Shown: positions 10,512 to 62,370 of the stretch, piece by piece
Layout: every line of letters begins with the position of its first letter
Numbering within the stretch: position 1 is the first letter of the stretch
NCBI RefSeq assembly: GCF_002005565.1
Contig: NZ_BDJC01000020.1
Location: 1 to 64,000, forward strand
DNA from: Streptomyces sp. JHA26
Lineage (GTDB): Bacteria; Actinomycetota; Actinomycetes; Streptomycetales; Streptomycetaceae
Length of the DNA stretch: 64,000 bases
Reading direction: 5' to 3'
Position numbers and translations under genes: made by a program
Notes under the pieces: generated by a model
Told to the model about the DNA's origin: nothing
The model's database searches: none
What the model saw: only the letters and a program-made list of their open reading frames with translations

Positions 10512-10956
10512 CGTGTCCATCCCTTTCCCCGTCGGGGCAGCTCCCCAACACCCTTTTCCGCAGGCGGACGTGTCCACCCGAGGCGTGAACGCCGGGATGG
10601 ATTCTGGTCCGTCCAGATGATGGCTTCACCTTAGGGAGGGGGACTGACAACGCGTCTGAGCTGCGGTTTCGCGCATGTGCCCGGGGGTCGGCCCGCACCC
10701 ACCGTACGGGCTGTCACTCGGACGTCTCTCGATCGCGTCACGCTGCTGTCCCGGCTGGGATCCGACGGTGGGAACACCACAGGAGCCCGGCCGGTGTTCC
10801 TGGTCGCAGGGGCGGACGCCCGTGTGTTCGCCCACGGCGTGGCGTCGGCCGACGCGTGAGGACATCTCACCGCACTGTTGAACTCACGCGGCTAATGGTT
10901 GATGGTTCATCTAAAGCTTCGATCCGCCGGAGCTCCGACCGGAAGGAACAACGAGC
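10512..10956. other. Intergenic region without a convincing gene
   Basis: Short frames here lack codon bias and ribosome sites. The base composition drops in GC from about 10860 on (GTTGAACTCACGCGGCTAAT), where the promoter of the secreted protein gene at 10957 should lie. TTGAAC near 10878 is a possible -35, but no good -10 could be fixed. Confidence 0.5.
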
Positions 10957-39996: not shown

Positions 39997-41655
39997 ATGC
40001 CAGAGACCCCGACGACGTCGGCGAACCCATCGGTCACCGGTTCCGAGATCGCCCGTATCGCGGGTGTCACCCGTGCCGCCGTGTCCAACTGGCGGCGACG
40101 GTACGACGACTTCCCCGCGCCGGTCGGCGGCGGCGCCAACAGCCCCCTGTTCGACCTCGCCGAAGTGCAGGCGTGGCTGGACAAGCAGAGCAAGGGGCAG
40201 GGCGTCACCGACGAGGTCCAGCTCTGGCAGGTGTTGCGCGGGGCCTACGGCGACGACATCCTCGGCGGGCTCGCCGACGTGGCACAGGCCCTCGCGGACC
40301 CCCACAAGGAGGTGCCCGCCGCGCTCCCCGACCAGGCCGTCCGGCTCGCCCGGCAGATGGCGGGCAGCGGTTCCGCCGCCGACGTGGTCAACGGCCTCGC
40401 CGAGCGCTTCACCGAGTCCGTGCGGCGAGCCGGCTCCGACCAGGTGACCTCGCCCCGCGTGGTGCGGGCCGTCCGGCACTTCGCGGGGGACGTCGCACCC
40501 GACGCGGTCCTCCTCGACCCCGCCTGCGGCATCGGCACGCTCCTGCTCGCCCTCGGCGCCGGGCAGGGCGCACGACGGTACGGCCAGGAAGTGGACGCCC
40601 GCAGCGCCCGCCTCGCGCAGTCGCGAGCCGACCTCGCCGGCCTCTCCCGCGTCGAGATCCAGCAGGGCGACTCGCTGCGCGCCGACCGGTGGTCCGGCGT
40701 CAAGGCCGACCTCGTCGTCTGCGACCCGCCGGTCAGCGACACCGACTGGGGCAGGGAGGAGCTCCTCCTCGACCCCCGCTGGGAACTCGGCACGCCCTCC
40801 CGCGCAGAGGGCGAACTCGCCTGGCTCCAGCACGCCTACGCGCACACCGCGCCGGGTGGCCGTGTCGTGATGGTCATGCCCGCCTCGGTGGCGTACCGCA
40901 AGGCCGGCCGTCGCATCCGGGCCGAGCTCGTGCGCCGGGGCATCCTCACCCAGGTCACGGCCCTGGCCCCCGGTACGGCTGCCGCGCACTCCCTCCCCGT
41001 CCACCTGTGGCACCTGCGGCGGCCGCGGACGCCGGACGACACGGCCGCCACCGTACGCATGGTCGACCTCACGTCCAACGACCCGGACGGCCCCTTGCAG
41101 CCCCGGCCCCAGCAGATCACCGAGGTTCCCCAGATCGACCTGCTCGACGACACGGTCGACCTCACCCCGAGCCGCCACGTCGAGGAGTCCCACCGCGACT
41201 ACGTCACGGAGTACGACACCCTGCGCCAGGAGCTCACCGAACACGTACGGCGCCTGACCGCACTGCTGCCCGCCCTCGTCGCCGGCGACGGCACCGGCAC
41301 CCTGGACGGACCCAGCGTCAGCGTGGCCGACCTGGCCAGGGCCGGGCTGATCGAGTTCGCCGATCCGGAACCGGTCTCGGTCAGCGACCAGCTCGACACC
41401 GACTTCCTCCAGGGTTTCCTGCACAGCGCCGCCAACAGCCGCCGCTCCACGACCGCCAGCGGCACCTTCCGCCTCGACAGCAAGGGCGCCCGCATCCCGC
41501 AGATGGACATCACCGCGCAACGCGGGTACGGCGCCGCCTTCCACGCGCTGCGCGAGTTCGAGGAGCGGTCGCGCAGGGTGGCGGAACTCAGCCGCCAGAT
41601 CGCGGCACTGGCCCGCGACGGACTGAGCAACGGGGCGCTGAAACCGGGCACGTGA
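39997..41655 (+). CDS. HTH/N6-adenine methylase/HsdS-like fusion with altered motif IV (defence island 2)
   Basis: The 552-residue protein is organised like the one at 18347-20482. It has an HTH at 14-34 (TGSEIARIAGVTRAAVSNWR), a methyltransferase domain with motif I DPACGIG (174-180), and a C-terminal part ending GARIPQMDITAQRGYGAAFH and a coiled helix. At motif IV it reads CDPPV (242-246) instead of D/N-PP-Y/F. Loss of the aromatic residue that stacks on the flipped adenine suggests weak or no methylation, so it may only bind DNA and AdoMet. It is 150 residues shorter in the target-recognition part than its paralogue. It heads a two-gene block with the EVE-like protein. Confidence 0.85.
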   Translation: MPETPTTSANPSVTGSEIARIAGVTRAAVSNWRRRYDDFPAPVGGGANSPLFDLAEVQAWLDKQSKGQGVTDEVQLWQVLRGAYGDDILGGLADVAQALADPHKEVPAALPDQAVRLARQMAGSGSAADVVNGLAERFTESVRRAGSDQVTSPRVVRAVRHFAGDVAPDAVLLDPACGIGTLLLALGAGQGARRYGQEVDARSARLAQSRADLAGLSRVEIQQGDSLRADRWSGVKADLVVCDPPVSDTDWGREELLLDPRWELGTPSRAEGELAWLQHAYAHTAPGGRVVMVMPASVAYRKAGRRIRAELVRRGILTQVTALAPGTAAAHSLPVHLWHLRRPRTPDDTAATVRMVDLTSNDPDGPLQPRPQQITEVPQIDLLDDTVDLTPSRHVEESHRDYVTEYDTLRQELTEHVRRLTALLPALVAGDGTGTLDGPSVSVADLARAGLIEFADPEPVSVSDQLDTDFLQGFLHSAANSRRSTTASGTFRLDSKGARIPQMDITAQRGYGAAFHALREFEERSRRVAELSRQIAALARDGLSNGALKPGT

Positions 41656-41763: not shown

Positions 41764-42162
41764 ATGGCGGACTGGATCTACATCCTCGATCCCCGCAGGG
41801 ACACGCTGGACGGTGAGTCGCCCGACAAGGAGACGATTCTCCAATTGGCGCAGGAAGAGCCCGAGTTGGAACTCTGGCTCGGTCGCCGCAACCGTATGGA
41901 GCCCGGCGACCGCCTCTGGTTGTACTTTGCCCGGCCCGAGTCCGCGGTCGCCGCGGTGGCCGAGGTCGACGAGGAGCCCCGCCCGGACGACGAGGACCCC
42001 GGGACCCCCTTCCTCGTCCCCGTCACCCTGCTGCCCGAGGCGACGAAGTCGCTCCACCGCGACCCGGTGGGCCGGGACGAACTGGGCCTGGGCCAGGTGC
42101 GGTCGGTCCAGAAGGTGAAGCCGGAGGCGCTGACGGTACTGCTGGCGCGTGCGGGGCTGTAG
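41764..42162 (+). CDS. EVE/PUA-like domain protein (defence island 2)
   Basis: The ATG at 41764 follows GAGGGGG. The 132-residue protein begins MADWIYILDPRRDTLDG and contains ELELWLGRRNRMEPGDRLWL then YFARPESAVAAVAEVDEEP, the layout of a PUA/EVE fold (a strand, then a basic loop, GDRLWLY and a beta hairpin). EVE domains read modified bases in DNA and are frequent in restriction systems. It lies 108 bases downstream of the methylase fusion and is convergent with the helicase. A 14-mer in front of it (41664-41677) recurs ahead of the other EVE-like gene. Confidence 0.7.
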   Translation: MADWIYILDPRRDTLDGESPDKETILQLAQEEPELELWLGRRNRMEPGDRLWLYFARPESAVAAVAEVDEEPRPDDEDPGTPFLVPVTLLPEATKSLHRDPVGRDELGLGQVRSVQKVKPEALTVLLARAGL

Positions 42163-42358: not shown

Positions 42359-44488
42359 TCAACCCGGCAGGAACGGGCTGGCCGTCCCGCTCCAGGACAC
42401 CGCGAGCGCCTCCCGTGCCCTCGTGCACGCCACGAACAGCAGGCACCGCTCCCGCAGCAGATCCGACTCGTGCTGCAGGACGTCCACGGAGGCCGGCGTC
42501 ACCTCCCGGCCGAACGGCACCGCACCGGCGGTCACACCGAGCACCGCCACGCACCGGAACTCCAGCCCCTTCATGGCGTGCATGGTGGCGAGCCGCACCC
42601 CGTCCACCTCGGCGCCCGCGTTGTCCCTGACCCGGACCACCGGCACCCCGGCCGCGGCGAGCCTGTCGTAGGCCTTGTCGAGCAGGACGTTGAACCGGGC
42701 GCACACGCCGATCTCCGCGGGCCGGATGCCCCGCGCGACCCAGTCCTGGACGCGCGCGACGAGCGCCGCGACCTCCTCCTGCTCCGACCCGTACCCCGCC
42801 GTGTGCGGTCTGCGTCCGTGCAGCAGCGACCGGTAGCCGGCCAGCGTGTCGTGGCCGTCGCCGCCCAGGTCCTCCACCGTCACCGGGCTCAGCAGGCCGG
42901 TGGACCAGGTCAGGATCTCCTCCGTGCTGCGGTAGTTGAGCCGCAGCCGGTGGGTGCGCCCGGTCACCGCGATGCCCAGGGAACCGAGGGACACCTTCGA
43001 GTCGTAGATGCGCTGGTGCGGATCGCCCGTGAGGAACAGGTCGTCGCTGCCGGGGGCCACCGCGCCCCGCAGCACCCGCCACTGAGCGGGGTGCAGGTCC
43101 TGCGCCTCGTCCACCACCACGTGGTCGTGCGTGGGCGACGACGCCGCCAGCAGCTCGGCCGCCCGCGCGCACACCTTCAGGTACGTCGTCTCCTTCCGCT
43201 CCCGCAGCATCGCCTCGAACAGCTCCACCGCGGGCCACAGCCGCTCCCGCCTGCCCGGGGACAGGGCGCTGCCCCGGCCGCGCCGCGAGGCCGCGAGATA
43301 GTCGTCCAGCGTGCGCAGGTCCTGCGCGAGGACGACGTGCCGGTACTCCTGGGCGAGGAACTGCTCGGTCCACGGCAGCCCGAGCCTCTTGACCACCCGC
43401 TGCCACACCTGCCGCTCCTCGCGGTCGCCGACGGGCGAGGGCGCCTTGCCGTCGAGACGGGTGACGACGCCGTGCGCGTAGGCGTTGACCGTCGTCACGT
43501 CCACCCGCCCCAGCAGTTCCTCGTCACCGTCCAGGAGCAGCGACAGGTTCTCGCGCAGGGTCGCCGCCAGCGCGTTGGTGTACGTCGTGAGCAGGACCCG
43601 GGTGTCCGCGGAGCGGCCGAGCAGATGCTTGACGCGGTGCAGGGCGGCGACCGTCTTCCCGGTCCCGGGACCCCCGGTGACCTGCACCGGGCCGCCGTAG
43701 GACACCCGGTAGGCGACCCGCCGCTGCGAGGGGTGCAGGAAGACCCGCCAGGCCGCGAACGGCTTCTCCAGGATGTCGGCGAGTTCCTCCGGTCCGGTGA
43801 CCAGGGTGATCCGGCTGGTGGTGTTGGCGATCGCGGCCGCGAGGCTCTCGTCCGGATCGGGGCCGGCGGCCACCGGCCGGCGCACCGCGACGACGTCCCG
43901 GTAGACCTCCTCGGGGCCGAACCCCTCCGCGAGGTACTGCAGCACCTCGAACTGGTCCTCCGGCAGCAGCGTCCCGAACGCCTCGAGCTGGGGTTTGTCG
44001 ATGACGGTCCGCACCGCGCGCAGCACCTGGTCGTCGAGGCCCAGCTCCCGCAGCACGGTGTCCGAGTACCGCGCGAACAGCAGCGAGGGCGCGGCGGCCG
44101 CGGCCTTCTCCAGCTGCGGAGTCAGCTGCTCGATGGCCACCACGTTGCGGACCTCGAGCGCCCGCGTCGCCGAGTTCGTGGTGTAGAGCCGTTTGGCGGC
44201 CCAGGTGTAGGCGTCGTCGTGCGGGACGACGTTGACGAGCAGGAACACGTCGCTGCCGTCGTCGGGAGCGAGGACGACACCGCGCCAGAAGTCGTTGATC
44301 CGGATGGTCCGCATCCGCGGATCACGGGCTTTCTCGACGGACTCCAGGTGCAGCCCCTTGTCCGCCTGCAGCTCGGGAACGGTGAGCTGCTGGAACTTCT
44401 GCATCGCCTTGCGCACGCCGGCCCGCACGGGTTTCTCCAGGAGGTCGTAGCTCTCCCAGAAACTGTTGGCGAACGCCAGCTGCGGCAC
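42359..44488 (-). CDS. UvrD/Rep-like DNA helicase with N-terminal RelE/ParE-like domain (defence island 2)
   Basis: GTG 44488 follows GGGAGG by 8 bases, giving 709 residues. The first 90 (LAFANSFWESYDLLEKPVRA, DPRMRTIRINDFWRGVVLAP, VFLLVNVVPHDDAYTWA) look like a RelE/ParE toxin fold. A superfamily 1 helicase follows: VTGGPGTGKTVAALHRVKHL (Walker A), VVVDEAQDLHPAQW (motif II), GDPHQRIYDSK (motif III), RLNYRSTEEI (motif IV) and TMHAMKGLEFRCVAV (motif V), with ACTRAREAL (VI) at the end. It should unwind DNA with ATP. It is the last gene of the coiled-coil/McrB/McrC operon, 40 bases after mcrC. Confidence 0.88.
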   Translation of the reverse strand: MPQLAFANSFWESYDLLEKPVRAGVRKAMQKFQQLTVPELQADKGLHLESVEKARDPRMRTIRINDFWRGVVLAPDDGSDVFLLVNVVPHDDAYTWAAKRLYTTNSATRALEVRNVVAIEQLTPQLEKAAAAAPSLLFARYSDTVLRELGLDDQVLRAVRTVIDKPQLEAFGTLLPEDQFEVLQYLAEGFGPEEVYRDVVAVRRPVAAGPDPDESLAAAIANTTSRITLVTGPEELADILEKPFAAWRVFLHPSQRRVAYRVSYGGPVQVTGGPGTGKTVAALHRVKHLLGRSADTRVLLTTYTNALAATLRENLSLLLDGDEELLGRVDVTTVNAYAHGVVTRLDGKAPSPVGDREERQVWQRVVKRLGLPWTEQFLAQEYRHVVLAQDLRTLDDYLAASRRGRGSALSPGRRERLWPAVELFEAMLRERKETTYLKVCARAAELLAASSPTHDHVVVDEAQDLHPAQWRVLRGAVAPGSDDLFLTGDPHQRIYDSKVSLGSLGIAVTGRTHRLRLNYRSTEEILTWSTGLLSPVTVEDLGGDGHDTLAGYRSLLHGRRPHTAGYGSEQEEVAALVARVQDWVARGIRPAEIGVCARFNVLLDKAYDRLAAAGVPVVRVRDNAGAEVDGVRLATMHAMKGLEFRCVAVLGVTAGAVPFGREVTPASVDVLQHESDLLRERCLLFVACTRAREALAVSWSGTASPFLPG

Positions 44489-44528
44489 GACGTGCCCTCC
44501 CCACCCCGGACGGTCACTGCGGAGCCGA

Positions 44529-45737
44529 TCATACGCGTGACCTGCCGATCAGCCGCTCGGCCACCTCCCCGACCTCGGCCAGCAGCCCCACCGGTTCCTG
44601 GTCGAGGTCCAGGGCGTGCTGGTGGAGGACGGTGCCCGCGTGCCGCACCCGGTGGGCGGCGTGACCGGCGTTGCCCTTCGCGTACACCAGGTGCCCCTCG
44701 CCGAGTCCGAGGGCGGTGCAGTAGGCGAGCATCTGGTACAGGTCGGCGTCCGGGTAGCCGCCCCGTCTCTCCGCCTTGTACTTGGCGTCGGCCACCGCGC
44801 ACGGCGCGCGGTCGGGCCCGTAGAGGACGAGGTCCGGCCTCATCCGGACGGTCCGCGCCTCGTCCAGGTGGAGCGGGTCCTGGAACCGCGCGACGTACCC
44901 GGAACCGCGCAGCGCCTCCCGCAGGGCGACGGTCACGAAGTCCTCGAAGAGCTTGTTCATGTCGAACAGGAACCCCTCGACGCGCAGCCCGCCGGGCCCG
45001 TGCTCCGGGGAGGCGCCCTCCAGCACGGCCCGCGCCAGCCGCAGGGCGTGGTGGTACCGGGCGTTGAGCCGGCTCGGCCGCCACTCGGGCAGGGGCCGGC
45101 CGCGCACGAGCACCGTGACGTCCGCCAGCCGCGCCCGCTGGTGCAGCAGCCGCCGGCGCACCTCGCGCGGCACGCCGGGCAGCCGCAGCAGCCGCTCGAC
45201 GGCCGCCCGCAGGATCCGGTTCTCCGCGATGTCCGTGGTGAAGTCGTCGTACGCCACCTCCACCGGCGGCGTCGCCCCGAACCGGCGCCGTATCTGCTCG
45301 GCCTCCCGGATCCGCCCCCGCACGACCGGCGAGGTCTCCTCCGTCATCCGGTAGCCCTGCAACAGCCCCTGCCGCAGGGCCCGGTCCACCTGTCGTTCCA
45401 CGGCGTGGGCGAGCGCGGGCAGCACCTCCCGGTGCTCGGCCACGTCGACCTCGCCGTCCCGCCAGGCACCGGCGGGGTCGAGGCTGTAACCGAGCAGGAA
45501 GAACAGACGGACGATCGGCACCTTGGGCACGATCCGGACCGTCAGCCGGTCGTGCCCCGGCACCGCGACCGCGACGGCCCCGACCTTGCTGCCGGCCCGC
45601 AGCGACCAGCGCCCGGGGGAGTACGGGTCCGGCGCGGCGTCCACGACCCGCAGGGCCGCGAGCGCCCGCCCCACGTCGTCCGGCAGGGCCACACCGACCG
45701 CCGGCGCGTGCTCGACGAGCTCGACGACCGGCGTCAC
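44529..45737 (-). CDS. mcrC: McrC family protein (5-methylcytosine restriction nuclease subunit)
   Basis: The GTG at 45737 overlaps the McrB stop as GTGA, giving 402 residues. It begins VTPVVELVEHAPAVGVALP. The N-terminal beta region (GSKVGAVAVAVPGHDRLTVR, IVPKVPIVRLFFLLGYSLDP) is typical of McrC. The C-terminal nuclease core has RMRPDLVLYGPDRAPCAVAD then AKYKAERRGG, which is the PD-(D/E)xK site (Asp, then Asp-Ala-Lys). With McrB hexamers it would cleave DNA carrying modified cytosines. It lies between mcrB and the helicase on one transcript. Confidence 0.88.
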   Translation of the reverse strand: MTPVVELVEHAPAVGVALPDDVGRALAALRVVDAAPDPYSPGRWSLRAGSKVGAVAVAVPGHDRLTVRIVPKVPIVRLFFLLGYSLDPAGAWRDGEVDVAEHREVLPALAHAVERQVDRALRQGLLQGYRMTEETSPVVRGRIREAEQIRRRFGATPPVEVAYDDFTTDIAENRILRAAVERLLRLPGVPREVRRRLLHQRARLADVTVLVRGRPLPEWRPSRLNARYHHALRLARAVLEGASPEHGPGGLRVEGFLFDMNKLFEDFVTVALREALRGSGYVARFQDPLHLDEARTVRMRPDLVLYGPDRAPCAVADAKYKAERRGGYPDADLYQMLAYCTALGLGEGHLVYAKGNAGHAAHRVRHAGTVLHQHALDLDQEPVGLLAEVGEVAERLIGRSRV

Positions 45738-47548
45738 CCCGACGACTCCCGCAGCGCCGCCAGCCCGTACCGCTGCTCGACGTCCACGCCCTCGCCGTAG
45801 TGGTGCTCCTCCAGCAGCGGCAGGATCTTCGTCCGCCAGGTCCGCTCCAGACCGCCCTCCCGGTACACGCCCTTCTTCATCAGGTACGAGGGCCCGATGC
45901 GGAAGTCGGGATCGTCGATCCGCGCGTTGAGCGCGTCGAGCAGGTCCGCGGGCTCGGCCTCCCGGCCCTCCCGCTCCAGCCACCGGCGCAGCAGACCGCT
46001 CGTCGGCTCGGTGCGCGGCGACAGCTCGACGAACGCGAACCGCCGCCGCATCGCCGCGTCGACGAGGGCGATGGACCGGTCGGCGGTGTTCATCGTCCCG
46101 ATCACGAACAGGTTCGGCGGCAGCGCGAAGTCGTCACCGGAGTACGTCAGCCGCACCGACCTGTTGCGGTACTCCAGCAGGAAGTACAGCTCGCCGAAGG
46201 CCTTCGCGAGGTTGGCCCGGTTGATCTCGTCGATGATCAGGAAGTGCGGGATGTGCCGGTTGCCCTCGCGGGACGCGAGGTCGGCCAGCTCCCGCAGCGG
46301 CCCGGCGGTGAGCCGGAACGCCACCTCCCGGGTCTCCGGGTCCTCCTGCGGCCGGAACCCCTCGAAGAAGTCCTCGTAGGAGTACGAGGGGTGGAACTGC
46401 ACGAGCTTGACCTGCTCGGGGCCGCCGCCCAGGAACTCGGCGAGTTTGAGGGCGAGGTAGGTCTTGCCGGTGCCGGGCGGACCGTAGAGCACGAGCTGCC
46501 GCTCGTCCCAGAGCAGATCACGCACCTCCTCCAGCCACGCCGCGTCGTGCACGAGCAGATCGGCGGCCAGTTCCTCCGTGGGCCGGGGCAGCTCCAGCTC
46601 GCGGCGGGCGGCGAGCGCGGGGATCTCCACGCTCGGGTCCCGCTCCGTCCCCCCTGCCTCCTCGGCCAGTTCCTGGTCGGTGAGGCCGAGCCCCTGGACG
46701 TGGGCCTGGACGGCGGAGAGGTCGACGACGTCGTGCTGGACGGACAGCTTCTGCTGGAGCTCCTCGGGCAGGTCGTCGTAGGGGAAGCCGGTCGGCTGCC
46801 ACTCCACGGGCCGGCGCAGGTTCGACCGGCGGTCCTCGGACTCCGTCTGTCCGGCCTCGCCGGTGACTTCGCCGACGTACAGCCGGCCGCCGGAGATCGT
46901 GCACACGGTGTCCCCGGGTTTCATGCGCGACAGGAAGGCGTGGAGGTCCTCGACGAGCTGCTGCCGCTGGCTGTACGTGGCGGTCGACTCGTAGTCCTCC
47001 TGGACCAGCGTGCGCAGCTCGTCCTTGCTGACGCCCTGCCGAACGCCCTGCCGCAGCCGGGAGGCGGCGAGGGTGACGCGTCCCTCGGGCAGCCACAGAC
47101 GCTGGACCAGGTCCAGGCCGGTGACGTTGGAGCCGCGCACGAGCCACGTGCGACTCGGGCCCGCCCACACCCCGGACATGAAGTCGGACAGGGGCCTGCC
47201 GTCCTCGGTCCGCCACTCCTCCCACCCGTTGCGCGGCGCCCCGACCAGCACGACGGCGGCGAAGGAGGGCGAGCCGAACACCACGTCCTCGGTCAGCTCC
47301 AGCCAGCCCGGCCAGCGCGCCGACGGCACCAGCACGCCTTGTGCCCGGAGCTCCTCACGACGTCTGGTCGGCGCCTTGAAATGCTTGCCCAGCGAGGGCA
47401 TCACATGGTCCCGCGCCGGAGAACCGGCCCGGACGAGGAACTTCCGGCTGCCGTTGGTCCCCGTCTCGTCCAGGAGCACTCCGCGTGCCCGGTCGATGCC
47501 GTCACCGCTGGGCAGCCGGAGCCGGAACTCCGGATATTCGTCGGCCAT
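45734..47548 (-). CDS. mcrB: McrB-type AAA+ GTPase with N-terminal DUF4357-like domain
   Basis: The 604-residue protein begins at 47548. Residues 1-70 resemble DUF4357 (GVLLDETGTNGSRKFLVRAG, LRAQGVLVPSARW). Residues 190-260 are PUA/EVE-like (GDTVCTISGGRLYVGEVTGE). The AAA+ core from 330 has YGPPGTGKTYLALKLAEF (Walker A from residue 356), YEDFFEGFRPQ, FLIIDEINRANLAKAFGELY (Walker B) and IGTMNTADRSIALVDAAMRR (the McrB signature and sensor). It should hydrolyse GTP and translocate DNA for McrC. It is preceded on the same strand by the coiled-coil gene at 155 bases. Confidence 0.92.
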   Translation of the reverse strand: MADEYPEFRLRLPSGDGIDRARGVLLDETGTNGSRKFLVRAGSPARDHVMPSLGKHFKAPTRRREELRAQGVLVPSARWPGWLELTEDVVFGSPSFAAVVLVGAPRNGWEEWRTEDGRPLSDFMSGVWAGPSRTWLVRGSNVTGLDLVQRLWLPEGRVTLAASRLRQGVRQGVSKDELRTLVQEDYESTATYSQRQQLVEDLHAFLSRMKPGDTVCTISGGRLYVGEVTGEAGQTESEDRRSNLRRPVEWQPTGFPYDDLPEELQQKLSVQHDVVDLSAVQAHVQGLGLTDQELAEEAGGTERDPSVEIPALAARRELELPRPTEELAADLLVHDAAWLEEVRDLLWDERQLVLYGPPGTGKTYLALKLAEFLGGGPEQVKLVQFHPSYSYEDFFEGFRPQEDPETREVAFRLTAGPLRELADLASREGNRHIPHFLIIDEINRANLAKAFGELYFLLEYRNRSVRLTYSGDDFALPPNLFVIGTMNTADRSIALVDAAMRRRFAFVELSPRTEPTSGLLRRWLEREGREAEPADLLDALNARIDDPDFRIGPSYLMKKGVYREGGLERTWRTKILPLLEEHHYGEGVDVEQRYGLAALRESSG

Positions 47549-47703
47549 GGGCCCCTCTCACCCCTCCTGGTCAATCCGTCCGCAGCGTACCGGCGGACAC
47601 TGACGATCCCGCCGTGACGCCGGCACCGGTGGGCCGGTCTCCGGTGACGAGAGGACCGGCCCACGCCCGACTCGCCGGGCACCTCCCGCTGGTCAGCGGT
47701 CCG

Positions 47704-49320
47704 TCACGTCAACGTGTTGGACAAATGGGGCCCGATGTACCCGATGTAGATGCCGTACTTCGCGCGGGCTCCGTCGAAGTAGTGGAGCCGCGGCGCGATC
47801 GTGTTGCCGCCGCCGACGCGTACGTGCGCGCCCATGAACACCTTCCGTGCCGGATCGACGTGCTCCGGCACGGGGAACGTACGCTGTCGGCGCCAGCTCG
47901 AGTTGCCCTTCACCGACTTGGACTCGTCCCGCACGATCTTCCGGGGCGAGATCGTGCGGACCCCGCCCGGGGCGTCGGCGCACCACTGCTTGAAGTCCCG
48001 GCCGGCCTGCCCGGTGGTTGCCGCCCGGGCGAAGTCCCCGAGCGCCAGCAGCGCGTCCCAGGTCATGCGCACCCAGGACGAGCCGTACGCCTGCGCGTCG
48101 AGGTCGAGCGTCACCTTCCGGGAGCCGGTGAAGTGCAGGCGGGGCAGGGAGTCGAGGCGGCGCAGGAGTTCCTCGAAGGACTCCGGGCAGTCCTCCGGCA
48201 CGGTGAGCGGGGTGTACGCGGCCGCGGCGGCACCCAGTTCCACCATCTGCTTGCGCAGCATCTGCAACTGCGCTCGGACGGAGTGCAGTTCCCGGTACTG
48301 CTCGTCGTACTCGGCGATCAGCAGGGTCTCGTTGTCCTCGGCCTTGCGCAGCTCGTACTTGAGGTCGCGGATCTCGTCGGCCCGTACCCGTTGCTCCCGC
48401 CCCGCCTCCTCCAGGATCTCGTGGAGGGCCTCGTTCTCGACGCGCAGCCGTTCCAGCTCGGGCGCGGCGGAGTCACCCGGTGCACGGGTCCGCATGACCG
48501 GCACGGAGTCGAGCTCGGCGGGGAGGGGAGCACGGGCGGCCAGCCGCTGGGGCAGCTGGGCGATGATCCTGCGGGCCTGCGACGGGCGGTCGGCGATCAG
48601 TCTGCGGGACATCACCCGGTGCCGTTGCCCGTCGGCGGGCCAGGCCGGGTCGACTCCCGGGAGGTAGGTACGCACCCCGCCGCCGTAGACCCGGTGGTAC
48701 TCCAGCGCGCGGTTGAAACGGGTCTCCGCCTCGGGGGTGAGCACGTAGAGGATCGCCAGACCGGCCAGGGGCCGGACCAGCGGGTCCACGGTGTCCTCCA
48801 GCCAGGTGTCGAAGTCGGCCCCGTACGGCGTGCTGGCCACGACGACCGGCAGGCGCCGTGTCTCGTCGCACAGTTCGTCTATGACGGCGTCGACGTCCTC
48901 CGCCTCGACCACCTGGGGATCGGCCGTGACGTCGGCGCGGCCGTCGCGCGCCTCGAGGACATCGAGGAGCCCGCGCGCGAGCCGGGGCGTCTTGGCCGGT
49001 ACGGGCACGGCCTCGGGGTCGTCCGGCAGGTGTTCCACGTCCAGCTGGACCCTGGTCGGGCCGTCTCCGGCCTGACGGATCACCAGGGTGGTCTGCCAGG
49101 TTCCGCCGGGCAGCGTCTCGCGCAGCCGCCAACGGCCGTACGCCCCCGAGGCGCCGGTGGCGGAGTCGTGGTCGAGGGTGACGCCGCGGGCTATCTCGTT
49201 GCGGCCCTCGGCGAAGGCGTCGACGTCGTAGCTCTTCGGGGGGTCCCTGAGCCATCGGCGCAGCCGGTCGTCGACCTGCGCACCGGTCGTGACGTAGTCC
49301 AGTCCGCTGGTGACGACCAT
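47704..49320 (-). CDS. Coiled-coil protein of the McrBC operon, function unknown
   Basis: I use the ATG at 49320; TTG 49341 with GAGGA upstream would add seven residues. The frame stays open to 49608, but that part is low-complexity Pro/Ala/Thr. The 538 residues have an N-terminal alpha/beta part (VVTSGLDYVTTGAQVDDRLR, PVVVASTPYGADFDTWLEDT). A coiled coil runs from about 295 to 380 (RVENEALHEILEEAGREQRV, EIRDLKYELRKAEDNE). The ordered C-terminal domain has PARKVFMGAHVRVGGGNTIA, PRLHYFDGARAKYGIYIGYI and GPHLSNTLT, which may be a RelE-like or nucleic-acid-binding fold. I know no family name. It lies upstream of mcrB on the same strand and may sense or scaffold the complex. Confidence 0.72.
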   Translation of the reverse strand: MVVTSGLDYVTTGAQVDDRLRRWLRDPPKSYDVDAFAEGRNEIARGVTLDHDSATGASGAYGRWRLRETLPGGTWQTTLVIRQAGDGPTRVQLDVEHLPDDPEAVPVPAKTPRLARGLLDVLEARDGRADVTADPQVVEAEDVDAVIDELCDETRRLPVVVASTPYGADFDTWLEDTVDPLVRPLAGLAILYVLTPEAETRFNRALEYHRVYGGGVRTYLPGVDPAWPADGQRHRVMSRRLIADRPSQARRIIAQLPQRLAARAPLPAELDSVPVMRTRAPGDSAAPELERLRVENEALHEILEEAGREQRVRADEIRDLKYELRKAEDNETLLIAEYDEQYRELHSVRAQLQMLRKQMVELGAAAAAYTPLTVPEDCPESFEELLRRLDSLPRLHFTGSRKVTLDLDAQAYGSSWVRMTWDALLALGDFARAATTGQAGRDFKQWCADAPGGVRTISPRKIVRDESKSVKGNSSWRRQRTFPVPEHVDPARKVFMGAHVRVGGGNTIAPRLHYFDGARAKYGIYIGYIGPHLSNTLT

Positions 49321-49661: not shown

Positions 49662-49835
49662 ACATGGAGGGTGTTCGATGCGCCGATCGACGGTCGTGGC
49701 GCTTGTACGCGGCGTCCACGGGCGGTGGAGAGCGGGCGGAGACGTCCTGGCCGGGGAGTTCGAGCAGTACGTGGGGCCGGCCTCCGGCCTGCAGGGCGGC
49801 GGCCGGGCATCCGGTGCCTCGGTAAGGTGACCGGC

Positions 49836-50336
49836 GTGTCGTCCTCGCACCTGCTGATCATCGGAGAACGGGCCGCTCTGAGCTGGGTGGTGACCGAGCA
49901 GCGCATGGCGTTCCCGGCCGGGCGGACCAAAGCGGCGCGGGCCCTGGAAGAGGATGACGAGATCTTCCTCTACACGACGCGCGGCTGCTTCCGGAATCCG
50001 ACCCGCGACCTGGGCCGGGTGATCGCCCGCGCCTCGGTCGCCACTCCGGTGCGGACGCTGGACGAACCCGTCGTCTTCGGCGGCCGCTCCTTCACGGAGG
50101 GCTGCCGCCTGGAAGTGTCCGGGCTGGCGCCCTTCCGCGACGGACTCGTCCTGCGCGACCTGGTCCCCCGGCTGTCGGCCTTCCCGGACCCGGCGACGTG
50201 GAGCGTCCGCATGCGACGGGCGTCGCTGCCCCTGCCACCGGCGGACGCCGACCTGGTGCGCGCGGAACTGCGACCACTGCTGCGCCCGTACGACGAGGCC
50301 GCCGACGCCTACCGTTGGGAACCGGCGCCTGCCTGA
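49836..50336 (+). CDS. Second EVE/PUA-like protein
   Basis: GTG 49836 follows AAGG by 8 bases; GTG 49827 is also open. The 166 residues contain HLLIIGERAALSWVVTEQRM, then TKAARALEEDDEIFLYTTRG and LGRVIARASVATPVRTLDEP. This matches the EVE pattern: a start strand, an amphipathic part with GDxIFLYxTRGCF, and a RVIARA strand. Domains of this group bind modified bases or nucleic acid. It is divergent from the coiled-coil/McrBC operon and may help recognise the target DNA. Confidence 0.7.
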   Translation: MSSSHLLIIGERAALSWVVTEQRMAFPAGRTKAARALEEDDEIFLYTTRGCFRNPTRDLGRVIARASVATPVRTLDEPVVFGGRSFTEGCRLEVSGLAPFRDGLVLRDLVPRLSAFPDPATWSVRMRRASLPLPPADADLVRAELRPLLRPYDEAADAYRWEPAPA

Positions 50337-54115: not shown

Positions 54116-57100
54116 ATGGAGATCGTCACGACGGCCGCAGGGATCATCGGAAGGATGGCAGCCAAGCCCTTGTCGGATACCGCGATGCGTCGTGAGGCGG
54201 TGATCCGAGCGCTGCGGGCAGCACGGCTGAACCCCACGGTGCCACCGCAGGACTTCGCCAGTCTGTACGCCTACACACTCATCGAGTACTGCACCGGTCG
54301 CTCGCAGTCTGTGCTGGTCTTCTTCCGGGATACGTACGTACGGGATGCGTTCCACAGGTCCTTCTCCGACGGCGACTGGAGCCGGCTGCGCCGTGAGACG
54401 TCGGAAGCGGTGGAGCGCAACCGCGAGACACGCGAGTTCGGGCACCTCGACCACGGATTCGAGGAGCATGTCGACGGATTCATCGCCGAGTTCCACTCTC
54501 TTGTGGACCGCAGTCGGGCACCGCACGAGGCTCGACTTGAGCAGAAGATCGACACGCTCCTGGAACGAGTTCCTCAGACGCGGGTGGAGGAGGAGAGCCA
54601 TCGCGTTCGCACCGAGCCGGGACGCGCCGAACTCTCGCCCGCACAACGTCTCATGCAGGACGCGCACGAGTGGTTCACCGCTGTGGGCTACGAGATCCGG
54701 CGCACGTGGGAGGTGGCCGACGGCAATGTGGCCATGCTGGTCGACATCCCCCAGCGGCGTCCCGGGCGCTTCGATCGTACGGTGATGCTCTGCGTCGAGG
54801 GTGAACTCGCGCCGCACCACATGCGGCTCCTCGACGAACTGGTCACTGCCGAGACCGCCCTGGAGGGCTGGGGACTGGCCCGACTTCGAGTCAGTGAGGC
54901 CGCCCGCCGCCAGGCTGCGGATAGCGGCGACGTACTGTTCTGCTTCTCTTTCGACGAGCTGGTCGATCTTGAAGCGGACTTCGAGCCGTACATCGCCTGG
55001 GTCGAAGAAGAGGTTCGCCGCCGCGGCATCGACAGCCGTTACGTGCCGGTCTCCTGCCGCAAGGAAGAGATCGACCCCGCGACGCAGCGGACGCTCGACA
55101 CCAGTACCTATGACTGGCGGGACGGCGGCCTGGACGACTACGTGGCGGGCTGGCTGGAAGAACCGGCGAAGAGGCATCTCTCCGTCCTCGGCGAGTTCGG
55201 CATGGGCAAGTCGTGGTTCGCCCTGCACCTGGCCGGCGATATGGCCCGTGGTTGGCGCGACGCCAAGCAGAGGGGGGTGCCCAGGCCCCGGATTCCCCTG
55301 CTGATCCCGCTGCGGGACTACGCCAAGCAGGCGACGGTCCAGGGTCTGTTGTCGGAGTTCTTCTTCAACAAGCACAAGATCGACCTGCGCAGCTACGACG
55401 TCTTCCGTGTCCTCAACCGTATGGGCCGTCTGCTGCTCATCTTCGACGGCTTCGACGAGATGGCCGCGAGGGCCGATCGGAACACCGTCATCGCGAACTT
55501 CTGGGAACTGGCCGGCGCCGTCGAACCCGGCGCGAAGGTGCTGCTCAGCAGCCGCAAGGAACACTTCCGTGACGCCCAGGAGGCGCGCAAGCTGTTCGGC
55601 GGTGAGATCAGCGTGCCCACGGCCGGATCTCTCGAGTCCAAGGACGGCCCGACCTTCGACATCGTCGAGCTGGTTCGCTTCGACGACGAGCAGATCGAAC
55701 GGATGCTCCGCCATGACCTGGCCGAGGACAAGGTACGGCTGGTCATGGAGCACGAGGACGTGCGTGAGCTCATGGGGCGGCCGGTCATGTCCGAGCTGGT
55801 GATCGACGCACTGCCGGAGATCGAGCAGGGGGCCGAGATCAATCTCGCCCGGATCTACCTCTATGCCGTGCAACGGAAGATGGACCGTGACGTGCGGGCG
55901 GAGCGCACGTTCACATCGCGCGGCGACAAGCTCTTCTTCCTGTGCGAGGTCGCGTGGGAGATGCTCTCCACCAACCAGCTCAGCCTCAACTACCGCGACT
56001 TCCCCGATCGACTGCGGTCCTGCTTCGGCTCTGCAGTGCAGAGCGCCAAGGACCTCGACTACTGGGAACAGGACATGCGCAACCAGGGCATGCTGGTGCG
56101 CAACGCCGAGGGCGACTACGGCCCCTCGCACAAGTCTTTGTTGGAGTTCCTGGTAGCCCTCAAGTTCGCGGCGGAACTCGGTCTGTTGGAAGGTGACTTC
56201 CTCGGCGTGATCCCTACGTCGGAGTCTGTGGACACCGGGCAGCGGGAGTGGACGTGGTCGCAGTACTTCTCGGCTCGCTCGGGCGACGGGAAGCTGCCCG
56301 CACTCGCTGCGTTCGTGGCGGAACCGATCGACGTGCTGGGCAGCACGTTCGGCGAGCTGGATCAGAACGAAGCGGTGTACGAGTTCCTCTCGACGATGGT
56401 CCGCGAATGTATGGATCACCAGGAGCGACTGCTCGACGTGGCACGGGCGACTACCGGAGCGGAGGTGGAGACGGGGACCCTCGCGGCCAACTGCCTCAAC
56501 TTGATCGTCTTCGCCGGGGGCAGTCTGGAGGGGGCACGGTTGAGAGGGCTCGATCTCTCGGGCTTTGGGCCGTGGCACTCTACGCAAAAGGTGTCACTCG
56601 CGGGTGCTGACCTGCGAGATACACAGCTAGGCGACGCGCGACTGACCAGTGTCGACCTCGCCGGAGCAGACCTCACCGGCGCATGGCTGGGGCACGGGGA
56701 TCTACTGGATGACGGGCAATATCGCCAAGGCCTGGTCCATTCCAGCGGAGCGGTGGTGGTTCATGAAGGCAACGAGGTGCTGCACTGGGCGAGAGGCCGA
56801 ATACACGAGCCACCCTCTCGACTGCCTATCGTCGGTGATCCACACTCCGTGAACATCGGAAACTGGGATTCTGCCACCTGGTGGTACAGCGATGTGACTG
56901 AGGGGCGGATCATCGATGCGGCGACAGGCGGTGTGGTCGGCATCACGATAGCTGGGGAGTACTGCATCCCTATCGTGTGGCGAGATCAGCAGGCACTCGC
57001 TGCGTTCGATCCCGTGGCCCACGCCCTGCTTGTGAAAGAGCCGGGGACGGGCCACGTCATCGACAATTTGCCATTGCTTTGGGAGGGATCCGGAACGACA

Positions 57101-57727
57101 GTCCTCATGGGCGGTAGCCACGGCCTTGTGGCGATGGGATGGGGTGAAATGTCCCTGCGCTTTGGAGTCGCCACGGGAGAAGAAGGTGGCTACTGGCGTC
57201 AACTGCAGACCATGGATTACAAACGGGAAGCCACAAGTCGTCAGGTTCTCTCGACGAAGGACAGCGCACTGCTTCTGGTGGACGGGCGACCCGTCGCGGC
57301 GGTGGACGCCCTTGCGCCAGAGGGTCGACTCGATGATCAGGGATTGCCCTTTCCTGTTCCGGCATTGACCAAGGTCGATGCCTTCGTATTCCGCGCCAGG
57401 TCAGGCATGGCGGCAGTGGCGGCTGACAATAGCCTGTATGGGTGGTCTATGGGGACGTCCTCCCAAGCGATGATGTGGCAGATACCGGGGGTGCCCAGTG
57501 GGGTTCAGGCGCTCTGGTCCCCCGTAGAGGGCGATCTCCTTGCTGTCATGACGAGGATGGGTGAATTGTGGCTATGCGACTTCCGTACGGGCGAAGTCAA
57601 GTCCCGTACAGCGCTGGGCAGTCGCCTGCGAGGTACGCGCTTCTCGCGTGTGTGTGGTCTGGACGAGGGCGCATTGCAAGCCATCTGCCGGGCTGGCGGC
57701 GTGCTCGTGGACCAGCCTGAACCGTAG
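54116..57727 (+). CDS. NACHT-domain STAND protein (bacterial NLR) with pentapeptide and propeller-like sensor
   Basis: This 1203-residue protein has several parts. Residues 1-150 are a helical N-terminal region. Residues 165-300 (QRLMQDAHEWFTAVGYEIRR, GRFDRTVMLCVEGELAPHHM) may be a degenerate nuclease-like domain. The NACHT ATPase follows, with GEFGMGKS (359-366) as Walker A and LLLIFDGFDEMAARAD (Asp444) as Walker B. A helical arm comes next, with a NYRDFPDRL segment and GPSHKSLLEFLVALKFA. About 805-870 is a short pentapeptide run (GARLRGLDLSGFG, SLAGADLRDTQLGDARLTSV, DLAGADLTGAWL). The last 330 residues are beta-rich. Bacterial NACHT proteins protect against phages by oligomerising on a trigger; the effector here is uncertain. 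It stands alone. Confidence 0.87.
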   Translation: MEIVTTAAGIIGRMAAKPLSDTAMRREAVIRALRAARLNPTVPPQDFASLYAYTLIEYCTGRSQSVLVFFRDTYVRDAFHRSFSDGDWSRLRRETSEAVERNRETREFGHLDHGFEEHVDGFIAEFHSLVDRSRAPHEARLEQKIDTLLERVPQTRVEEESHRVRTEPGRAELSPAQRLMQDAHEWFTAVGYEIRRTWEVADGNVAMLVDIPQRRPGRFDRTVMLCVEGELAPHHMRLLDELVTAETALEGWGLARLRVSEAARRQAADSGDVLFCFSFDELVDLEADFEPYIAWVEEEVRRRGIDSRYVPVSCRKEEIDPATQRTLDTSTYDWRDGGLDDYVAGWLEEPAKRHLSVLGEFGMGKSWFALHLAGDMARGWRDAKQRGVPRPRIPLLIPLRDYAKQATVQGLLSEFFFNKHKIDLRSYDVFRVLNRMGRLLLIFDGFDEMAARADRNTVIANFWELAGAVEPGAKVLLSSRKEHFRDAQEARKLFGGEISVPTAGSLESKDGPTFDIVELVRFDDEQIERMLRHDLAEDKVRLVMEHEDVRELMGRPVMSELVIDALPEIEQGAEINLARIYLYAVQRKMDRDVRAERTFTSRGDKLFFLCEVAWEMLSTNQLSLNYRDFPDRLRSCFGSAVQSAKDLDYWEQDMRNQGMLVRNAEGDYGPSHKSLLEFLVALKFAAELGLLEGDFLGVIPTSESVDTGQREWTWSQYFSARSGDGKLPALAAFVAEPIDVLGSTFGELDQNEAVYEFLSTMVRECMDHQERLLDVARATTGAEVETGTLAANCLNLIVFAGGSLEGARLRGLDLSGFGPWHSTQKVSLAGADLRDTQLGDARLTSVDLAGADLTGAWLGHGDLLDDGQYRQGLVHSSGAVVVHEGNEVLHWARGRIHEPPSRLPIVGDPHSVNIGNWDSATWWYSDVTEGRIIDAATGGVVGITIAGEYCIPIVWRDQQALAAFDPVAHALLVKEPGTGHVIDNLPLLWEGSGTTVLMGGSHGLVAMGWGEMSLRFGVATGEEGGYWRQLQTMDYKREATSRQVLSTKDSALLLVDGRPVAAVDALAPEGRLDDQGLPFPVPALTKVDAFVFRARSGMAAVAADNSLYGWSMGTSSQAMMWQIPGVPSGVQALWSPVEGDLLAVMTRMGELWLCDFRTGEVKSRTALGSRLRGTRFSRVCGLDEGALQAICRAGGVLVDQPEP

Positions 57728-58806: not shown

Positions 58807-61800
58807 TCAGGCGGGGTCCGGCGGCAGCAGGTGCTGCCGCCGCTCCTCCGCGTCCAGCGTGCGGAACACCCGCCCGCGCGCCCGCGCCTCCAACTGGTCG
58901 TAGTCGGGATCCGCCGGCCACACCCGCGTGGTGCCGTCGGCGGAGGCGGTGAGCAGCCGCGTACCGTCCCCGGACCACGCCACCGACAGCACCTTGTCCC
59001 GGTGGACACCGACGACGGCGAGTTCCTCGAACGTGGCGGCGGACCAGAGCCGTACCGTCCGGTCGTCGGAACCGGTCGCGACGCGGCGGCCGTCCGGCGA
59101 CCAGGCGACGGCCCGGACCCGCCCCTCGTGGCCCTTCAGCACGTCGATACGCCGGCCGGTCACCGCGTCCCATACGGCGGCCGTCCAGTCACCGGAGGCC
59201 GTGGCCACCCGCTCCTCGTCCGGGGACCAGGCCGCGTCCTCCACGTAGTTGCCGTGTCCGCGCAGCACGGTCAGTTGGGTGCCGTCGGCGGTGTCCCACA
59301 GGCGGCAGGTGCGGTCGTCGGAGCAACTGGCCAGCCTCCGCCCGCTCGGTGACCACGCCACGCGTCCCACCCAGTCCTGATGCCCGGTCAGCTTCCGCAG
59401 CTCGGCGCCGTCGACGGCGGACACGAGGCGTACGGTGCCGTCGTGGCCGCCGGTCGCGATCCGCCGGGCGTCGGGGGACCACGAGCAGCCCTCGACGGGC
59501 TCACCGTGCAGGTCGAACACCGTGTCGCCGGAGCCGTCCACCACACGCACCAGTCCGTCCGCGGTGCTGAGGGCCAGACGGTCGCCGTGTGGTGCCCACG
59601 CCACACTCCACACCCGCTCGCCCGGCGCCGTCACCGCTCCGGCGGGCGCGCCGGAGTCCGCGCTCCAGATCCGTGCCGTCCCGTCGTCCGAGGCGGTGGC
59701 GAGACGCGTACTGTCGCCGGACCACACCGCCTGGTTCACCGGCCCGTCGTGCCCCTGGACCAGAACGGACTCGGCTCCCCGCGGCCGGAGGTCCCACACC
59801 CGGCCGCTGCCGTCCGTCGACGCGGTGGCGAGCTGGGTGCCCGACGGCGACCATGCGACGGCCCACACCGTGTCGGTGTGGCCGCGCAGCACCGCGACCT
59901 CCTTCGCGTCCTCGGTGCTGACGACGCGCACCGTCCGGTCGGACGACGGGGAGGCGAGCAGCCGGCCGTCCGGTGAGAAGGCCGGGTTCCACACGTAGTC
60001 CGCGTGGCCGCGCAGCAGCAGCCGCAGGGCGCCCGTGCGAGCGTCCCAGATCCGGGCGGTGTGATCGCCGGACCCGGTGGCCAGTGACTCTCCGTCCGGC
60101 GACCACGCGACGCCCTCGACGAACTCGGTGTGCCCGGTCAGGGCCGTCGTGGCCGCTCCTGTCACCGCGTCCCAGACGATCACCGTCCGGTCGTGCGACG
60201 CGGTGGCCAGACGCGAGCCGTCCGGCGCCCAGGCCACGCCCCAGACGTCACCGGTGTGGCCGTGCAGTTCGTGCACGAGTCGACCGCTGTCGGCCTCCCA
60301 CACCCGGGCCACCTGGTCCTTGAACGTGGCGGCGATCCGTGCCCCGTCCGGCGACCACGCCACCTGCCGACCGATGTCCCCGGCGCCGGCGAGCTGCCGG
60401 ACCGGTTCACCGGACACGGCGTCCCAGACGCGTACGACCTGGTCGCGCCCGGCGGTGGCCAGCCGTGTCGCGTCGGGGGAGAAGGACACCGACTCGACCA
60501 TAGCGCCGTCACACGGCAGCACCCGCAGCGAACGCCCCGACTCCGCGTCGTACACGCGGGCCGTCCCGTCCCTGGACGCGGTCGCCAGCAGTCGTCCGTC
60601 AGCGGACCAGGCGACGTCCCGGACCGTGTCCGTGTGACCGTCCAACCGGATCCGCAGATGACTCGCGGCCAGCGCCGTCATCAGCCCCCGCCGCGCGGCT
60701 GCAGTCGGCGCGCACTCGCCGAGCGCGGCCAGGGAGAGCAACAGCGCCCGCTCCGGCTCGGTCTCCGCACTGGCGAGCACCTGCCGACCGATGCTCTCCG
60801 AGACACGGCTGAGGAAGGCCAGGTCCCGGCTCTGCGAGGCGTCGACGAGCGCACGGGCGGGAGCCGACGCCTGCCCGGCCTCCTCCAACGCGGCCAGCCA
60901 CCGCTGGGCGACGGTGAGGCGCTCACCGGTGAGGAGGTAGTCCGCACTGCGCCCGGACCGTTCCCAGTCGGCGGCCCACCGCTCCAACTCGGCCCGCTCC
61001 CGGAGCCGCTCCGCCCGCGCTTCCGCCTCCTGGCGCAAGGGCGCCCACTGCCGGAACAGCGCCTCGTGCGTCACCTCCGCGCACGCGTCCCGGTGGCCGT
61101 CCGCGTTCCCCGCGGTTCCCTCGGCGGCGTAGGACCGGATCAGGCGCGCCTCGATGAAGGCGTCCACCACGTACCGCTCCCGGTCGGTCAGCTCGGACAG
61201 CCGCACCGGACGGCGGGCGAGGTCCCGTTCCTCGACGGTGACGAACTTCAGCAGCACCCGCAGCGCGAAGTCGATGCCGCCCGGAGTGCCGAGGGCGGCG
61301 ACCGTGTTGTCGGCCTGCCGGGCCAGCGCCCCCGCCACGCCTCCGAGTTGTCGGTACGTCTCCTCGGTGACCGTGCCGCCCGGACCACAGGCGAAGTACA
61401 GTTCCTGGAGGAGATAGGCGAGCAGGGGCAGTGCGTCGTCCGTACCGGTGTCGTCCACGATGGTCTCGACGAGGCCGGGCTCGAACGAGATGCCCACCAG
61501 CGCACCCGGTCGCTCCACCACCTGGGCGAGCTGTGCCCGGCTCAACGTGCCGATGGCGGCCGGGTGTTGCAGGAACGGCGCGTGACCGGTCCCGAGCAGC
61601 CGTCCCAGCAGGTCCACCCGGCACGTGGCCAGGACCCGGACGGAGGGTTCCTGTCGCAGACACGCGTGCAGCGCTTCCAGGAACTGTGCCTGTTCCCGCT
61701 CACCCGCGAGGGTGACCAGCTCCTCGAACTGGTCGATGACGAGCAGCACCCGCTGGAACTGCCCGGCCCGTAACCGCGACAACTCGGCCGCGAGGCTCTC

Positions 61801-62370
61801 CGGCCCCTGCCGCAGCCGCCGCAGTACCGCGTCGGGTGTCTCCCGGCCGCCACCGGCCGCGGCCAGAGACGCGGCCAGCGCGTGCAGGGGGTTCGCTCCC
61901 GGTGAGAACGTCGGCACGATCGTCCACCGGCGCCGGCGCAGCCGGGGCATGACCCCGGCCCGGACGAGCGACGACTTGCCGCTGCCGGACGCCCCCGTCA
62001 GCATCAGGAAGCGGTCGGCGGGGCGGGTCGCGGAGGCGTGCAACCGGCGCGTCAGATCGGCGGCCTGCGCCTCCCGGCCGAAGTAGACGGCCGCCTCGTC
62101 CTCGCCGAACGCGTCCAGCCCCGGGTACGGAATCCGGTCACGCGGCCACTCCGACGGCGCGGGCGCCGGGTTCTCCAACCGGTACACGACGACCTGCCCG
62201 ACCACCATGGCCACGACCAGCAGCCCGATGGCCGGAACGGACCACTGCTGGATCATCTCCAGCGCCCAGGGCGCGTCGTCCTTGCTGGTGGCGTAGTTGG
62301 TGACGATGCCGAGCAGGCAGGCGACCAGCGCCAGCAGGATCTGCAGCACGATTTGGAGGCGCTGCCTCAT
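58807..62370 (-). CDS. Membrane-bound nSTAND ATPase with 14 WD40 repeats
   Basis: The 1187-residue protein has two membrane helices (LQIVLQILLALVACLLGIVT, residues 6-25; VPAIGLLVVAMVVGQVVVYR, 45-64). The nSTAND NTPase domain shows the entry motif PYPGLDAFGEDEAAVYFGRE, LTGASGSGKSSL as Walker A (from about 125) and RVLLVIDQFEELVTLA as Walker B. A helical arm follows. From about 570 there are fourteen WD40 repeats of about 42 residues (GHTDTVxxVAWSPDGxxLAT then ASxDGTxRVWD), enough for two seven-bladed propellers. Such proteins bind a trigger through the propellers and oligomerise by the ATPase. No effector domain is evident, so it may act through the membrane part or a partner. Confidence 0.9.
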   Translation of the reverse strand: MRQRLQIVLQILLALVACLLGIVTNYATSKDDAPWALEMIQQWSVPAIGLLVVAMVVGQVVVYRLENPAPAPSEWPRDRIPYPGLDAFGEDEAAVYFGREAQAADLTRRLHASATRPADRFLMLTGASGSGKSSLVRAGVMPRLRRRRWTIVPTFSPGANPLHALAASLAAAGGGRETPDAVLRRLRQGPESLAAELSRLRAGQFQRVLLVIDQFEELVTLAGEREQAQFLEALHACLRQEPSVRVLATCRVDLLGRLLGTGHAPFLQHPAAIGTLSRAQLAQVVERPGALVGISFEPGLVETIVDDTGTDDALPLLAYLLQELYFACGPGGTVTEETYRQLGGVAGALARQADNTVAALGTPGGIDFALRVLLKFVTVEERDLARRPVRLSELTDRERYVVDAFIEARLIRSYAAEGTAGNADGHRDACAEVTHEALFRQWAPLRQEAEARAERLRERAELERWAADWERSGRSADYLLTGERLTVAQRWLAALEEAGQASAPARALVDASQSRDLAFLSRVSESIGRQVLASAETEPERALLLSLAALGECAPTAAARRGLMTALAASHLRIRLDGHTDTVRDVAWSADGRLLATASRDGTARVYDAESGRSLRVLPCDGAMVESVSFSPDATRLATAGRDQVVRVWDAVSGEPVRQLAGAGDIGRQVAWSPDGARIAATFKDQVARVWEADSGRLVHELHGHTGDVWGVAWAPDGSRLATASHDRTVIVWDAVTGAATTALTGHTEFVEGVAWSPDGESLATGSGDHTARIWDARTGALRLLLRGHADYVWNPAFSPDGRLLASPSSDRTVRVVSTEDAKEVAVLRGHTDTVWAVAWSPSGTQLATASTDGSGRVWDLRPRGAESVLVQGHDGPVNQAVWSGDSTRLATASDDGTARIWSADSGAPAGAVTAPGERVWSVAWAPHGDRLALSTADGLVRVVDGSGDTVFDLHGEPVEGCSWSPDARRIATGGHDGTVRLVSAVDGAELRKLTGHQDWVGRVAWSPSGRRLASCSDDRTCRLWDTADGTQLTVLRGHGNYVEDAAWSPDEERVATASGDWTAAVWDAVTGRRIDVLKGHEGRVRAVAWSPDGRRVATGSDDRTVRLWSAATFEELAVVGVHRDKVLSVAWSGDGTRLLTASADGTTRVWPADPDYDQLEARARGRVFRTLDAEERRQHLLPPDPA

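Follow-up and report, generated by a model that had tools for sequence, protein, structure and literature searches.

An McrBC locus of Streptomyces sp. JHA26 with an ArmD-like helicase, a methyltransferase-like partner and a damage-type promoter motif

Genes and domains at the locus

The stretch of DNA analysed here (the window) comprises 64,000 nucleotides (nt) of contig NZ_BDJC01000020.1 from Streptomyces sp. JHA26 and carries an McrBC locus, with four open reading frames on the minus strand, corresponding to a coiled-coil gene, mcrB, mcrC and a helicase gene (Table 1). A description made from the letters alone (the original prediction) had taken these genes for an extended McrBC operon, and its layout is exact, including the GTGA overlap of 4 nt between mcrB and mcrC (45734-45737) and the 40 bases before the helicase gene (44489-44528). 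For the coiled-coil gene, the most probable start is 49341 (MDTRRYRMVVTSG), which lies 21 nt further upstream than the one given then and is kept in relatives. Two elements had been overlooked: a convergent methyltransferase-like gene, and the 155 nt that separate the coiled-coil gene from mcrB, where a promoter motif is found.

Regarding the restriction proteins, McrB is matched by the Pfam families DUF4357 (E 7.9e-18) and AAA_5, and its GTPase motifs GPPGTGKT (Walker A) and MNTADRS (with the NxxD signature) are kept in 22 aligned copies. McrC is matched by Pfam McrBC (PF10117) and keeps PD...DAKY, a PD-(D/E)xK signature, in 30 aligned copies. The overlapping genes, GPPGTGKT, NTAD and the PD-(D/E)xK nuclease are shared with canonical McrBC (type IV, NxxD McrB GTPases). 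CoCoNuT membership was rejected, as the McrB signature is NTAD (NxxD, not NxD) and the coiled coil is a separate, unfused protein. By its motifs, the McrBC is thus classed as canonical and non-CoCoNuT. However, canonical McrBC has DUF3578, where the McrB found here has DUF4357 and another domain, and the module adds a third operon gene, a convergent putative pseudo-methyltransferase and a damage-type promoter motif. The N-terminal parts of McrB had been called DUF4357-like and EVE-like; the former stands, whereas an EVE identity for the middle part finds no support from Pfam or PDB profiles, this region being matched by PADLOC PDC-S02 models only.

The helicase (Pfam UvrD, E 1.5e-19) aligns from end to end with a plasmid-encoded ArmD protein of E. 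coli (35-36% identity, 36% over the whole length), sharing its RelE-like domain and GajB-like helicase. In that plasmid, armD comes fourth, preceded by two genes for DEAD/DEAH helicases and one for a large DNA methyltransferase, and this four-gene order is the published ARMADA type II layout (Bell et al. 2025, PMC12458937). The RelE/ParE-like character that had been assigned to the N-terminus has good indirect support from an alignment with the ArmD N-terminus (30% identity, E 4e-13), but the direct domain match is weak, with ParE_toxin found in 2/14 relatives (best E 0.0019) and the expected b-a-a-b-b-b-b-a order seen in a low-confidence model. Residues R63, R69, H90 and D91 of this domain are conserved. 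The full-length AlphaFold (AF2) model has a predicted local distance difference test score (pLDDT) of 57, serving for topology only, and the top matches of a PDB search are all helicases. In mean distances along the module, the McrB sensor domains are the most variable parts (0.46 and 0.35) and the GTPase (0.11) and the RelE-like domain (0.14) the least divergent, compared to 0.26 for the helicase core.

Unlike ARMADA type II (ArmA-B-C-D), with which it shares ArmD, the locus has its helicase gene in third place, behind mcrB and mcrC in their operon, and no ArmA (SNF2), ArmB (PglX) or ArmC (YprA) is present in the window. ARMADA defence requires all four genes and the Walker A motif of ArmD (PMC12458937). 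The novelty claimed for the domain set therefore holds only in part: the RelE-UvrD fusion is already published, since the helicase is an ArmD homologue (PMC12458937), EVE-McrB fusions are common (PMC7641849), and the association of McrBC with methyltransferases and DISARM-like cassettes has been reported (Bell et al. 2024, PMC11090510). What is new is the damage-type promoter motif before mcrB and the degenerate motif IV in the partner methyltransferase.

Table 1. Features of the McrBC locus, with positions in the window
Feature	Position	Strand	Evidence
Convergent N6-methyltransferase-like protein, N-terminal helix-turn-helix	39997..41655	+	Pfam N6_Mtase E 7.7e-26; motif survey, 39 module copies
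Stand-alone EVE-domain protein, between methyltransferase-like gene and helicase	41764..42162	+	Pfam EVE E 6e-05
ArmD-like helicase: RelE/ParE-like N-terminal domain (aa 1-97) and superfamily 1 UvrD/GajB-like helicase	42359..44488	-	Pfam UvrD; E. coli ArmD identity
mcrC: PD-(D/E)xK nuclease	44529..45737	-	Pfam McrBC E 4e-55; 30 copies aligned
mcrB: DUF4357 (aa 64-120), middle domain (aa 129-335), AAA+ GTPase with GPPGTGKT and NTAD	45734..47548	-	Pfam; 22 relatives aligned
RecA-NDp/PafBC-type promoter motif, TCGTCAGTG-N8-TACGCT	47584..47606	-	One mismatch to TTGTCRGTG-N8-TANNNT; 36 nt before mcrB start
Coiled-coil accessory protein, HEC-07-like, 545 aa	47704..49341	-	PADLOC HEC-07; AF2 model; 20/20 close homologues at module
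Parts of the coiled-coil protein: N-terminal beta-rich domain; thioredoxin-like, ~aa 120-270, no CxxC; coil, aa 295-368; conserved C-terminal domain, aa 390-540
Divergent small protein, upstream of coiled-coil gene	49827..50336	+	No Pfam match; again near module in L138 and L188

Conservation of the module and its neighbours

To assess the conservation of the unit, 200 Streptomycetaceae genomes were searched with McrC, the helicase, the methyltransferase-like protein and the coiled-coil protein in turn and regions of 20 kb were read, counting as close McrBC loci those with a full-length McrC of at least 55% identity (28 by our own count). The helicase gene follows mcrC in 21 of these 28 loci, being disrupted in one of them and separated from mcrC by the methyltransferase-like gene in another, and a convergent methyltransferase-like gene is found in 20. 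Conversely, all 21 helicase orthologues of at least 70% identity adjoin this McrC, compared to none of the 22 more distant homologues examined. These counts support the proposal that the helicase is an integral part of the unit.

Six genomes of other Actinomycetota contain both an ArmD-like gene and McrC, compared to about 0.75 expected by chance, and in five of the six the ArmD-like gene lies within 20 kb of McrC. A complete ArmA-B-C-D set (ARMADA II) stands directly beside McrBC in two other actinobacteria (L335/L336 and L338/L339). In the helicase tree, the McrBC-linked copies fall inside the Streptomycetaceae radiation of ArmD-like proteins, where a single change suffices, the deciding branch being weakly supported.

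These counts bear on the view that the locus is only part of a defence island, where a classic McrBC pair lies among bystanders, namely unrelated genes and an ArmD-like helicase that acts on its own. The ArmD-like family is also found beside DrmA/DrmB-like, SNF2/PglX and other genes, and defence-like genes abound in the window; however, the strict order and adjacency in 21 loci across genera, the 40-nt spacing and the position of every close helicase orthologue make this view improbable. As conflict-system genes near the module, the window encodes a NACHT protein with NNH5 and inactive-REase (restriction endonuclease) domains and pentapeptide repeats, and an nSTAND1-WD40 protein (54239-57727 and 58807-62370).

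The coiled-coil protein had also been proposed as an integral part, making four obligate components of one transcribed system, and this does not hold up well. The gene is co-directional with mcrB in the window, 155 nt upstream, and all 20 homologues of at least 70% identity, among 80 loci recovered from about 85,000 species genomes, are found at this module, 18 of them with McrBC. Against this, no more than 4 of the 28 close McrBC loci carry the gene, and when its presence is mapped onto the tree calculated for 53 McrBC loci, six changes are required, at least four of them forced. Inverted genes part it from mcrB in two loci (L033 and L138), and in another (L126) the coiled-coil, helicase and methyltransferase-like genes are contiguous, with McrBC cleanly gone from between them. 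Moreover, a conserved promoter motif belonging to mcrB itself lies downstream of the coiled-coil gene, the kind of separate promoter that the original prediction itself had named as breaking the unit. Four obligate parts are accordingly an unlikely arrangement. The coiled-coil protein is nevertheless not a chance neighbour, because its close homologues all sit at the module, compared to 0 of 59 more distant ones, and it is best described as a dedicated but optional accessory. The unit is then redrawn as mcrB-mcrC-armD-like with the convergent gene for a predicted pseudo-methyltransferase.

Losses are seen elsewhere among these loci. McrBC and most of the helicase gene are lost in L139. One further locus of the 80, in the very close relative Streptomyces sp. 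NRRL S-37 (L188), is a decayed copy, in which the coiled-coil gene has suffered an internal deletion and mcrB is reduced to a remnant, a sign that the locus decays readily. An association of the DUF4357 type with the presence of the coiled-coil gene, hinted by four loci, was not upheld with twenty.

The slot upstream of mcrB varies, being taken by the coiled-coil gene, by an SMC-like ATPase gene (best PADLOC match LmuB) with a small protein gene, by SNF2-PglX pairs, or by a divergent sigma factor gene with DrmA/DrmB-like helicase genes. In most coiled-coil-bearing relatives (L122-L138, L181), the SMC-like ATPase (about 800 aa) and the small protein (about 125 aa) are encoded directly upstream of the coiled-coil gene, and the same relatives often have another McrBC pair, a distant one that is accompanied by an EVE protein; the SMC gene and the second pair are absent from the window. 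The stand-alone EVE protein is again found upstream of the module in several relatives.

Beyond the module, more distant relatives of the coiled-coil protein are encoded before Mrr-type nucleases (Kitasatospora) or behind SNF2-PglX pairs, which makes the family defence-linked; in many Kitasatospora genomes (among L113-L117, L121 and L154-L201, mostly of this genus), a distant relative is fixed ahead of an Mrr-type nuclease gene. PADLOC HEC-07, a candidate family, matches the protein over aa 75-392 (E 2.3e-26, a partial coverage for a model with no curated cut-off), as it does 44/44 relatives, and there is also a match to the NsnC C-terminus. The HEC-07-like protein described here is tied to McrBC, whereas the family elsewhere goes with Mrr-type nucleases or SNF2-PglX pairs; a literature search for HEC-07 found nothing. 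In its AF2 model (pLDDT 85), a beta-rich N-terminus is followed by a thioredoxin-like domain, then by the coil and by a C-terminal domain that is conserved. The thioredoxin-like domain reaches a VIA Z of up to 9.9 to thioredoxin folds (root-mean-square deviation 3.1 over 109 residues), with Foldseek E values of only 0.007 or above, and no redox motif is conserved among the relatives. The model-based search gave no convincing fold match for the N-terminal and C-terminal domains.

The methyltransferase-like partner and the promoter motif

The methyltransferase-like protein combines a helix-turn-helix with an N6_Mtase domain, and the S-adenosylmethionine (SAM) motif I, DPACGIG, is intact in 38 of the 39 module copies. 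Motif IV is DPPV in the window (40723-40734) and DPPV, DPPA, EPPA, EPPT or EPPV in all 39 copies, i.e., [DE]PP[VAT], the catalytic NPP[FYW] being lost; a paralogue in the window has NPPY and two related proteins have NPPF. In amino-methyltransferases, the loss of the aromatic residue of motif IV is a sign of lost adenine methylation, as in METTL14 (EPPL). Judged by its sequence, the protein is therefore a predicted pseudo-enzyme, for which adenine methylation is unlikely, which argues against self-protection by methylation. The intact paralogue (18347-20482, minus strand) adjoins a DndB-like gene (20822-22042, plus strand, Pfam DndB E 2.8e-8), which is followed by a gene for an RNase H-domain protein (22263-23897).

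Restriction-modification of the LlaJI/BsuMI kind, in which the methyltransferase would mark host DNA and a McrBC-type complex would cut unmarked DNA, could draw on the retention of the gene beside McrBC and on a correlation between methyltransferase and McrC distances that persists once GTPase and helicase are corrected for (partial r 0.38-0.56), but it is an unlikely alternative, as it needs a catalytically competent DNA methyltransferase where the degenerate motif IV predicts an inactive one, and the McrB sensor domains do not covary with the methyltransferase core or C-terminal part beyond phylogeny (partial r about 0, p 0.45-0.62).

The relevant passages of PMC11090510 describe McrBC beside predicted DNA methyltransferases, and its authors announce a separate paper on methyltransferase-associated McrBC. 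The locus shares this neighbourhood but differs in that its methyltransferase is convergent and predicted to be inactive; those passages hold no mention of an ArmD-like gene.

Concerning expression, RecA-NDp promoters are activated by PafBC, which binds single-stranded DNA (PMC8223512, PMC6789036, PMC11804915), and they are described in Streptomyces (PMC5087735). The motif searched, TTGTCRGTG-N8-TANNNT, was validated on the recA gene of this genome, where exact matches amount to 21 sites, compared to none in the control, heading recA, ruvC, uvrA, uvrB, UDG, uvrD, mgsA and others. Two WYL genes in tandem, as would fit PafBC, are also present. Across 46 module loci (2.02 Mb of strand sequence), 20 matches with at most one mismatch were found, 15 of them directly upstream of mcrB, and the reversed control gave 0. 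The position seen in the window is kept in relatives, at 35-45 nt from mcrB where its start is called correctly. The motif precedes mcrB and not the coiled-coil gene, which lies upstream of the site, and between the two genes there is no sigma-70 or terminator match and no signal of a terminator or special RNA fold (z -0.35). The mcrB-mcrC-helicase message appears to sit behind a DNA-damage promoter. A further RecA-NDp-type motif with one mismatch is located at 10628-10650 (minus strand), some 108 nt ahead of the gene for a VWA-domain protein (9414-10520).

Proposed mode of action and its meaning

With a moderate degree of confidence, the locus is interpreted as a damage-inducible McrB-McrC-ArmD restriction module with a non-catalytic methyltransferase-like partner, from whose gene content, conservation, motifs and promoter motif position we infer the biochemical roles, the induction and the defence activity that follow. 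It would act as a type IV-like restriction module against phage or foreign DNA, where McrB, with its swappable N-terminal sensor domains, would load onto DNA and translocate, and McrC would perform the cutting. The ArmD-like RelE-UvrD helicase is probably translated from the mcrBC message and would unwind or process the cut DNA, its RelE-like part possibly attacking RNA or ribosomes. The methyltransferase-like protein probably binds SAM and DNA with no adenine methylation, and a recognition, competition or brake subunit seems more likely than a self-protection enzyme. The message would start at the RecA-NDp/PafBC-type promoter and would therefore probably be raised when single-stranded DNA or DNA damage builds up, possible triggers being phage replication or the aftermath of a first cut. 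The coiled-coil protein would be an optional accessory from a defence-linked family, with expression of its own or by read-through.

Several points weigh against this reading. The helicase is missing from 7 of the 28 close McrBC loci, the methyltransferase-like gene is also found where McrBC is lacking (L102-L105), and its degenerate motif IV may still be compatible with another chemistry than adenine methylation. As for the promoter, an automated scan allowing up to two mismatches finds the motif in only 20 of 46 relatives, several coiled-coil-bearing relatives have none, and the window copy itself carries a mismatch.

A more specific version of the damage-inducible module is put forward only tentatively, and is rather unlikely in full: the dead, SAM-binding methyltransferase would serve McrBC-ArmD as a recognition or self/non-self sensor, ArmD would have left ARMADA and joined McrBC in a single recruitment, and the McrB sensor domains would have been exchanged between lineages.

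Literature searches turned up no regulatory link between a restriction nuclease and the actinobacterial DNA-damage response, and the RecA-NDp/PafBC promoter motif would place such a nuclease under that response. In addition, the conserved pseudo-methyltransferase offers a possible answer to the published puzzle of type IV systems found beside methyltransferases. Finally, McrBC is linked directly to ArmD, with its RelE-like domain, in a smaller module, which is easier to test.

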